This document shows, piece by piece, positions 36,742 through 41,228 of a DNA stretch of 64,000 nucleotides. The translations under genes and the position numbers were made by a program. Position 1 is the first letter of the stretch, and each line of letters begins with the position of its first letter. Origin of the DNA: an uncultured Chlorobiales bacterium (GTDB lineage: Bacteria; Bacteroidota; Chlorobiia; Chlorobiales; Chlorobiaceae); NCBI GenBank assembly GCA_903929135.1, contig CAIYTH010000048.1:124001-188000 (forward strand). The letters run 5' to 3'. The notes under the pieces were generated by a model that was not told the DNA's origin, did no database searches, and saw only the letters and a list, made by a program, of their open reading frames with translations.

Positions 36742-37076
36742 GGCTGTCTGTGGATGGGTGGTGTAGAGTTGAATCGCTGTGCATATTACTCTGGCATTAT
36801 AAGTCTCAATTCCGCCTGGTGAACGTTGTCATTCTGAGGCCGACGAAGTCGGTCGAAGAATCCAGACTCATGGATCCTTCACGATGCTGCGCTTCGTTCA
36901 GGATGACAGACCTCGGTCTCTTACTTATTGCGTTCTTTATTTTCCCGGGTAATAAAATACATATTCCGGGCCTGATTACCGAACAGCAGGGCGCCTTCGG
37001 CAGTGCGGTTTTGCCCTCCATCCGATTTTGCTTACTATTACTGGGCAAACCATATAACCAACCTCGTCCTGCCCTC
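36742..37076. other. Divergent spacer between the aminotransferase and mpl
   Basis: 335 bases. Contains repeat family A (36827-36908) and then an AT-richer stretch (36915-37060) that probably holds the mpl promoter. The mpl frame is open across all of it by chance, but the repeat shows it is not coding. Confidence 0.7.
36827..36908. repeat. Intergenic palindromic repeat, family A (copy 2)
   Basis: Begins TGTCATTCTGAGGCC and ends TCGTTCAGGATGACA, near-inverted ends, with inner blocks GACGAAGTCGGTCGAAGAAT and GGATCCTTCACG. Related copies at 12627-12732 and 41035-41157. Confidence 0.8.
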
Positions 37077-38539: not shown

Positions 38540-39619
<1,080 letters not shown>

Positions 39620-39649: not shown

Positions 39650-39685
39650 GAAAGGTGCCCCGCAAAGGCACCTTTCCCTGTTTTC
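39650..39685 (+). terminator. Terminator of gap
   Basis: A perfect 10-bp stem, GAAAGGTGCC (39650-39659) with GGCACCTTTC (39667-39676), 7-base loop, then CCTGTTTT. Confidence 0.85.
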
Positions 39686-39786
39686 AGCCGGCACCGTGCA
39701 CACGGGCAAGTTGAGATTTTATTGTGAATGTCTTATCATGAGGTATAGTCGCTTCCCGCGTTCAGCTCAACCTTATCCTGTTACCA

Positions 39787-40257
39787 ATGACCCGGAACAT
39801 CACCAGGCCAACCAGGGCCATCATCCTTTACGACAGCAAATCCAGCGGCGGATCGACCGACCGGTTCATCGACGCGGTCGGAAAGAACCTGGCTGAATCA
39901 GGACTCTATGTCGAAAAGGCTCGATGCAAGGAAAACGGCGATTTCAGTTTCGTGGAGGAGTTCGACCTGGTTGTCATGGGAGCACCGATCTACTACCTGC
40001 TCGTCTCATCCCAGCTCTTCGGCGCCCTCTCCAGGAGCAACCTGAAACAGGTGCTGAAAGGCAAAAAAATCGCGCTGTTCGTTGCCTGCGGCAGCCCTGA
40101 GCCCATGGCCCACCTGCTTTACCTGCCCCAGCTCAAGATGAACCTGGAAAACCCGGTCATCCTTGCTGAACGCGTGTTCTCCACGGACCAGCTCAACGAT
40201 CCGGCCGCCGCCGCCGATTTTGTCGGCCAGATCATCACCGCTTATGAAAGGACTTGA
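39787..40257 (+). CDS. Flavodoxin-like protein (first of a tandem pair)
   Basis: 156 residues with a flavodoxin fold: phosphate-binding loop YDSKSSGGSTDRFIDAVG, then VMGAPIYYLLVSSQLFGAL and ALFVACGSPEPMAH. Very similar in order and wording to the next gene, so the two are tandem duplicates, but this one ends at the flavodoxin domain. Probable FMN-binding electron carrier or reductase; partner unknown. Twenty bases separate the two genes. Confidence 0.82.
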   Translation: MTRNITRPTRAIILYDSKSSGGSTDRFIDAVGKNLAESGLYVEKARCKENGDFSFVEEFDLVVMGAPIYYLLVSSQLFGALSRSNLKQVLKGKKIALFVACGSPEPMAHLLYLPQLKMNLENPVILAERVFSTDQLNDPAAAADFVGQIITAYERT

Positions 40258-40277
40258 AATAACATTACCCTTCACCC

Positions 40278-40934
40278 ATGACCCGTATTGAAGAAAGGCC
40301 GATGAGGGCAATCATCCTCTACGACAGCAGGACCACCGGCGGATCGACCGACCGGTTGATCGATTCCATCGGGAGGGAGCTGGTCGAATCGGGAGCTTAC
40401 GTTGAAAAAGCCAAGTGCAGGGCGCTGGCCGACTACAGCTTCGTCAAGGAATTCGACGTCGTCATCCTCGGCGCACCGGTCTATTATCTGGTCGTATCGT
40501 CGCAGTTGCTCGGTGCACTGGTGCAGAGCAACCTCAAGAAAAACCTGAGAGGCAAGAAAATCGCCCTTTTCCTTGCCTGCGGCAGCCCGGAACCCATGGC
40601 CCTGACCTTCTATCTCCCGCAGCTGAAGGTCCACCTGGTGAGAAACCGCATTCTCGCCGAAAAGATCTTCGCACCACACCAGATGGACGATCCCGAAACC
40701 ATCGGCGATTTCGTCGAGGAAATCGAGGAGGAGTACCGGAAAGCCAACAAGTCACGCACCCGTTCGACCGGAATCCAGTGGGACGATGAAGCTCTCGAGA
40801 TTCTCGACCAGATGCCCTCGATCTTCAGCGGCAAGATCCGGGCAACCATGGAGACCTATGCCCAACAGAACGGCATCACCCTCATCACCCCAGCGGTGCT
40901 CGACGAAGCCAGGTCCAGCCCGATGGGCTTCTGA
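40278..40934 (+). CDS. Flavodoxin-like protein fused to a PCP_red domain
   Basis: 218 residues. Residues 1-155 repeat the flavodoxin-like fold of the preceding gene (YDSRTTGGSTDRLIDSIG, ILGAPVYYLVVSSQLLGAL, CGSPEPMA). Residues about 165-212 (W168, then EALEILDQMPSIFSGKI and ITLITPAVLDEAR) match the PCP_red domain otherwise found at the C-terminus of the BchB/ChlB subunit of dark protochlorophyllide reductase. The fusion suggests a link between electron supply and tetrapyrrole reduction, but no experiment is known to me. No bch genes are adjacent. Confidence 0.82.
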   Translation: MTRIEERPMRAIILYDSRTTGGSTDRLIDSIGRELVESGAYVEKAKCRALADYSFVKEFDVVILGAPVYYLVVSSQLLGALVQSNLKKNLRGKKIALFLACGSPEPMALTFYLPQLKVHLVRNRILAEKIFAPHQMDDPETIGDFVEEIEEEYRKANKSRTRSTGIQWDDEALEILDQMPSIFSGKIRATMETYAQQNGITLITPAVLDEARSSPMGF

Positions 40935-40961: not shown

Positions 40962-41003
40962 AAAAAAGGCTGTCTCAGAAGCATATCTGAGGCAGCCTTT
41001 TTT
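40962..41003. terminator. Bidirectional terminator after the flavodoxin pair
   Basis: An 18-base arm on each side (40962-40979 and 40986-41003) with one mismatch, loop AGCATA, A6 on the left and T6 on the right. Can end the flavodoxin transcript and also leftward dnaJ transcription. Confidence 0.92.
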
Positions 41004-41034: not shown

Positions 41035-41228
41035 TGTCATTCTGAGTCCGACGAAGTCGGGCGAAGAATCCATCTGAACTATTGCAAGGTATTGCATTTT
41101 ATGAGATAACGACTGATCTCCGAGGAGGATGGATCCTTCACCTCGTTCAGGATGACAATGCCGTCCCCGGGTTGAAACCCAGGGCTACATAAGAGGATGT
41201 AAGAAACTAATGTCCGCAGGGTTGAAAC
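41035..41228. repeat. Intergenic repeats: family A (copy 3) followed by a decayed family B (copy 3)
   Basis: Family A runs from TGTCATTCTGAGTCCGACG (41035) to CGTTCAGGATGACA (41157). Directly next to it is a family B relic, CCCCGGGTT-GA-AACCCaGGG (41165-41184), with a degenerate second unit near 41217 (CAGGGTTGAAACACTG). The whole 330-base spacer between the flavodoxin pair and dnaJ is repeat and terminator, with no gene. Confidence 0.8.

Follow-up and report, generated by a model that had tools for sequence, protein, structure and literature searches.

Two adjacent flavodoxin-like genes, F1 and F2, lie within the 64,000-nucleotide stretch of Chlorobiales DNA analyzed here (the window), and the second of them ends in a PCP_red domain of the BchB type. 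As our best explanation, put forward tentatively and with close to even confidence, we propose that F2 is a PCP_red-docked FMN carrier feeding bacteriochlorophyll synthesis, most likely its radical-SAM enzymes.

The pair described in the initial annotation was recovered as two open reading frames (Table 1), which share 61% identity over 155 residues at the protein level and 72% over 300 nt at the DNA level and are thus true duplicates. The genes are co-directional with an intergenic spacer of 20 nt, and this short spacer together with the 18-pair stem that follows F2 suggests a two-gene F1-F2 unit. The conserved upstream neighbor, presumably gap judging by its sequence, probably has no part in what the flavodoxin pair does. 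A dispersed intergenic repeat was also observed in two copies (window 36827-36908 and 41035-41157, the latter just 3' of F2), which match over 38 nt at 95% identity and over 26 nt at 85%.

Table 1. Features of the F1-F2 locus, with positions in the window.
Feature	Position	Strand	Evidence
gap (glyceraldehyde-3-phosphate dehydrogenase), presumed; upstream neighbor	38615..39619	+	Gene order equal in Chlorobaculum and Chlorobium
Terminator-like stem between gap and F1	39650..39676	+	Stem scan
Two overlapping promoter-like sites 5' of F1	39711..39749	+	Consensus scan, 10/12 and 9/12 matches; not evidence of function
F1, unfused flavodoxin-like protein, 156 aa	39787..40257	+	ORF; Flavodoxin_5 27.1 bits (cutoff 27); 61% identity with F2
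F2, flavodoxin-like protein with C-terminal PCP_red, 218 aa	40278..40934	+	ORF; Flavodoxin_5 and PCP_red above cutoff; AlphaFold2 mean pLDDT 84
F2 flavodoxin domain, residues 9-157	40302..40748	+	Foldseek to Desulfovibrio flavodoxins; invariant positions in 33 relatives; phmmer alignment
F2 linker, about residues 158-167	40749..40778	+	pLDDT <50 at residues 160-163; variable in length and sequence
F2 PCP_red domain, residues 168-212, three helices	40779..40913	+	PF08369 42.9 bits; 2KRU fold; BchB/ChlB profile match
Strong terminator-like stem 3' of F2	40962..41003	+	18 pairs, then a T-rich stretch

Both proteins exceed the Pfam cutoff for Flavodoxin_5 (27 bits), F1 at 27.1 bits and F2 at 29.8 bits, and all 33 family members match this model at E ≤ 0.01. 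The AlphaFold2 model of F2 displays the alternating alpha/beta flavodoxin fold, a weakly predicted linker at residues 160-163 and a three-helix tail (mean pLDDT 84), and in Foldseek the full model superimposes on Desulfovibrio flavodoxins with a TM score of 0.75 by target length. The F2 loop DSRTTGGST aligns with the FMN phosphate loop and, like the tyrosine pair Y69/Y70, is well conserved among 33 relatives. By curated score F1 and F2 are members of the flavodoxin-like superfamily, and F2 is so by fold as well.

The Pfam model for PCP_red (PF08369) matched F2 only, at residues 168-212 (42.9 bits, E 5e-11, cutoff 32.5), in agreement with the initial annotation, which had placed this domain on the second gene alone. 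When the tail was modeled by itself (pLDDT 78.6) its top match in the PDB was 2KRU, the solved PCP_red domain of Chlorobium BchB (TM 0.76, E 3.2e-3), followed by the stand-alone protein asr4154 (2L09), with the ChlB chain of 2YNM in fourth place; this bears out the comparison with BchB that had been suggested at the outset. A profile built from 18 tails retrieved ten BchB/ChlB or asr4154 sequences at E values from 1.5e-11 to 5e-6, of which 2KRU gave 1.5e-11, and in the alignment the tail keeps BchB-type spacing along its length. The NCBIfam BchB models cover the F2 tail alone, at 20-40 bits against cutoffs of 490-912, and the nitrogenase-like body of the BchB/ChlB subunit of the dark-operative reductase (DPOR), about 450 residues, was not found in F2 with these models. 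The description of the domain as the tail of BchB/ChlB thus holds for sequence and fold and needs to be widened, since PCP_red also ends BchZ and occurs as the stand-alone asr4154. The tail is under purifying selection, weaker than that on the flavodoxin part (median dN/dS of 0.26 for the tail and 0.13 for the flavodoxin part in 128 pairs, whose synonymous changes are almost saturated).

In a survey of 394 genomes of the phylum (98 Chlorobiales and 296 others), members of the flavodoxin family were present in 96 of the 98 Chlorobiales, comprising 84/86 genomes in the family of the window and 12/12 elsewhere in the order, and in 0 of the 296 genomes outside Chlorobiales; the two Chlorobiales genomes that lack it are only 81-82% complete. 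Neither a mismatch of the tail fold nor the presence of the pair in non-phototrophs, which the initial annotation had named as grounds for abandoning its idea, was encountered. Outside the phylum the search comprised plasmids and a peptide-pattern scan that finds close relatives only, and the plasmid search returned no fusion. Within the phylum survey the fusion is confined to Chlorobiaceae, the 12 Chloroherpeton-type relatives having one unfused flavodoxin only. PCP_red of the BchB or BchZ type is carried by every Chlorobiales genome examined; a third PCP_red protein per genome, considered as a second fusion, was rejected because it is BchZ by sequence.

The F1-F2 arrangement is real, being conserved beside gap in every Chlorobaculum genome examined and bearing a tail under selection, and its counterparts in Chlorobium are varied. 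Most Chlorobium genomes combine an unfused gene at the gap site with a divergent second, fused paralog elsewhere, eight hold the fused gene only (G044, G081, G098, G111, G145, G163, G301, G324), and three near-complete genomes hold the unfused gene only (G056, G123, G201). Because fused-only and unfused-only genomes both exist, the unfused twin, which the initial annotation had proposed as a partner of the fused protein, is not an obligatory one. In a phylogenetic tree, Chlorobaculum F1 falls outside a clade made up of all fused copies and two unfused Chlorobium groups. The simplest reading of this tree, whose inner branches are weak, would be a single fusion followed by losses of the tail, and its topology suggests more than one origin for the set of one fused and one unfused gene. 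Remnants of the PCP_red tail of the fused paralog were noted in G313 and G254 (L207:1367-1492 and L208:1766-1891), where the frame directly 5' resembles what we take to be the end of a Tn3-type transposase; each is probably a transposon-cut pseudogene.

The neighborhood of the window copy, which adjoins gap and dnaJ and not pigment genes, is uninformative as to function. Chlorobaculum and Chlorobium share the order mpl, gap, flavodoxin, dnaJ, grpE, hrcA, which implies that the gap site is the ancestral place of the flavodoxin. The fused paralog of Chlorobium is the informative one, being set among other genes: in 17/20 loci it lies beside a putative CsmB-like gene of 74-75 aa, and in 17/20 it lies upstream of a DUF1997-like gene. 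In four genomes (G044, G098, G111, G123) the CsmB-like and DUF1997-like genes are present at this site and the flavodoxin is missing there. At three loci (L152, L159, L164) the paralog is near a run of an ArsA-like ATPase, a radical-SAM/B12 protein and BchU, the last identified by TIGR02716 at 496 bits, and at two others (L154, L156) it directly faces a gene of the same radical-SAM family. The latter two loci and L157 carry a protein of 514-521 aa, presumably a CruB-type cyclase, although this 520-aa candidate had no match in Pfam or NCBIfam. Overall, a BchQ-like radical-SAM/B12 gene lies within about 6 kb of the fused paralog on the same contig in 17 of 50 genomes, which through kinship are not independent, and in seven of those 17 the distance is 213-237 bp; two random genes in a 2.5-Mb genome would be expected this close about half a percent of the time. 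One genome (G085) holds both fused types, the second of which adjoins an extra, partly assembled BchQ-like gene, and another (G098) holds neither the second fused type nor the extra BchQ-like gene. Small CsmB-like genes were also seen at L204:10009-10233, L205:10001-10222, L206:10001-10225 and L201:9001-9225, where they adjoin a run of phosphotransferase, NTP-transferase and DUF1343 genes conserved in Chlorobium, and most genomes searched contain two to four CsmB-like paralogs.

The radical-SAM neighbor is best read, tentatively, as BchQ, judging from its family membership, size and domains and from the position of the corresponding gene in G003. Its family is present in most Chlorobaculum and in green-type genomes at 64-67% identity, including G003 (67%), which we take to be a green-type genome resembling C. 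tepidum. An assignment to BciD was rejected on this distribution, since BciD is limited to brown species and absent from green ones (PMC3613366). The genome of the window itself (G000) has two BchQ-like genes (C48:1395-2744 and C57:53264-54610, with 73% and 67% identity to the query from Chlorobium), and the gene is single in most Chlorobaculum. Two of the three genomes with only the unfused flavodoxin (G056, G123) retain a full-length BchQ-like gene despite having no fusion.

The initial annotation, by which PCP_red would take part in substrate binding in BchB, had tentatively linked the fused protein to a tetrapyrrole reductase. A connection with tetrapyrrole metabolism is sustained by the neighborhoods of the Chlorobium paralog, whereas a necessary role with BchN/BchB/BchL is weakened by the three unfused-only genomes, which keep BchB; the genomic linkage favors radical-SAM methylation and the genes of antenna pigments. 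The linkage of the paralog to BchQ-like, bchU and CsmB-like genes supports a role in the synthesis of bacteriochlorophyll c/e, and the combination of a BchB-derived domain, a flavodoxin and an adjacent BchQ-like gene is explained most simply by a pathway-specific carrier. BchQ and BchR are radical-SAM methyltransferases that act on bacteriochlorophyllide (PMC7242693). In radical-SAM methylases that depend on cobalamin, both the Fe-S cluster and cob(II)alamin have to be supplied with electrons, and a flavodoxin system can do this (PMC8992657). In the mechanism we propose, F2 would bind FMN within its flavodoxin fold and serve as an electron carrier, and the PCP_red domain of the BchB type, acquired by this carrier, would dock it to a tetrapyrrole or a tetrapyrrole enzyme. 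F2 could then pass low-potential electrons to the enzymes that make bacteriochlorophyll, the most likely clients being radical-SAM tetrapyrrole enzymes such as methylases of the BchQ/BchR type, and F1 would represent the ancestral, general form lacking the docking domain. Several observations weigh against this mechanism: the window copy adjoins gap and dnaJ in place of pigment genes; the linkage belongs to the paralog, not to F2, and is found in only about a third of the genomes with the paralog; and three near-complete Chlorobium genomes do without the fusion, two of which (G056, G123) nevertheless have the full-length BchQ-like gene.

We also consider a further-reaching version, possible in our judgment and rather doubtful, in which the BchB-derived domain directs the carrier to BchQ, BchR and possibly BchE, and the supply of electrons thereby governs how the antenna bacteriochlorophyll is methylated. 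If the carrier role is right, F2 would be a physiological electron donor for bacteriochlorophyll-synthesis enzymes, a donor that the cited literature does not name with certainty, and PCP_red would gain a role separable from BchB, that of guiding a partner towards tetrapyrrole enzymes or substrates. Because the fused gene has been lost, kept or duplicated across green sulfur bacteria, the group offers a simple genetic test.

Among the alternatives, the one closest to the original proposal would have F2 act on the nitrogenase-like reductases, as an accessory donor or as a regulator, its PCP_red domain occupying the tail position of BchB (or BchZ) and either allowing reduction of BchL/BchX or competing with the native tail. 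The F2 tail, which aligns lengthwise with BchB tails and is free of the BchZ-type insertion, is consistent with such a role, as is the need of the reductase for a low-potential donor, most likely ferredoxin or similar (PMC12518044). Against it, BchB in the same genomes retains its own tail, the three Chlorobium genomes without the fusion keep PCP_red-bearing frames of BchB length (with BchB homology checked in G056 and G123), and no linkage of the fused gene to bchNBL or bchXYZ was seen. As at least three near-complete genomes keep BchB without the fusion, an essential part in the dark reductase is unlikely; the donor model first suggested for DPOR is possible but weakened, and we consider the accessory role as a whole unlikely. 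A trade-off between BchB tail and flavodoxin tail was considered and rejected, since in at least two complete genomes the apparent lack of BchB comes from masking: the bchB region reads as N at L171:1-1501 and L172:1-1504 (G185 and G016), which mimics partial gene absence, and the bchB gene of G003 is probably masked as well.

Somewhat less likely again is the idea that F2 is a redox-linked buffer or sensor of free chlorophyll precursors, acting in photoprotection or pathway regulation, and not a dedicated donor. The stand-alone asr4154 (2L09) implies that PCP_red serves some purpose when no catalytic partner is attached, and the fusion can be lost, both of which fit a buffer or sensor, whereas the stronger conservation of the flavodoxin half suggests that redox chemistry matters.

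We regard it as improbable that the flavodoxins are an unrecognized anaerobic protoporphyrinogen IX dehydrogenase of the HemG type, which oxidizes protoporphyrinogen IX with menaquinone, and that PCP_red would help to bind or pass on the product. HemG, which belongs to the flavodoxin family, functions in the absence of oxygen (PMC7242693). Among flavodoxin families, Flavodoxin_5 gives the best match to the pair, which also matches HemG PRK11104 weakly, and in Chlorobaculum both HemY (TIGR00562) and HemJ (PF03653) fall below cutoff. HemG membership, raised by these sub-cutoff results, was not accepted, as the PRK11104 score of 16-18 bits is far below the cutoff of 142 and covers the N-terminal half only. 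HemG needs a long inserted loop, for which F1 and F2 appear too short; moreover, relatives in family f2 with a clear HemY also carry the flavodoxin. In the Chlorobaculum genomes themselves, a divergent 399-aa protein of the amine-oxidase type (L145:978-2174), which has a weak HemY match, could be the protoporphyrinogen oxidase. Equally improbable is that F1 and F2 are ordinary flavodoxins with no special pigment link, the tail setting only stability or dimerization: the neutral neighborhood of the window copy and the fact that Chlorobium has lost the tail repeatedly would suit this reading, but the tail is under purifying selection, the second fused paralog is repeatedly near pigment genes and the family is restricted to phototrophic Chlorobiales.

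The carrier we favor can be set beside several known systems. With HemG (PgdH1) the pair has the Pfam family Flavodoxin_5 in common, and departs from it in scoring far under the PRK11104 cutoff with a half-length match. The flavodoxin system of cobalamin-dependent radical-SAM methylases (PMC8992657) has the same low-potential electron supply that we propose; a docking domain is not described there, and the likeness of F2 to it is drawn from gene neighborhood. The short-chain flavodoxins of Desulfovibrio (3F6R, 1AKR) are alike in core fold and length at about 20% identity, but the F1/F2 family has a longer phosphate loop and a tyrosine pair in place of the usual tryptophan, and F2 has the additional tail. 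The asr4154 protein of Nostoc is a PCP_red domain outside BchB/BchZ that matches the F2 tail in fold and profile and, unlike F2, has no flavodoxin part. The closest likeness of the tail is to the PCP_red domain of BchB/ChlB (2KRU, 2XDQ, 2YNM), with which it shares the three-helix fold and the spacing of W, P and YA..G..IT; the F2 counterpart of the basic BchB helix (RKKVRKN) is less charged, and the domain is joined in F2 to a flavodoxin rather than to a nitrogenase-like body.
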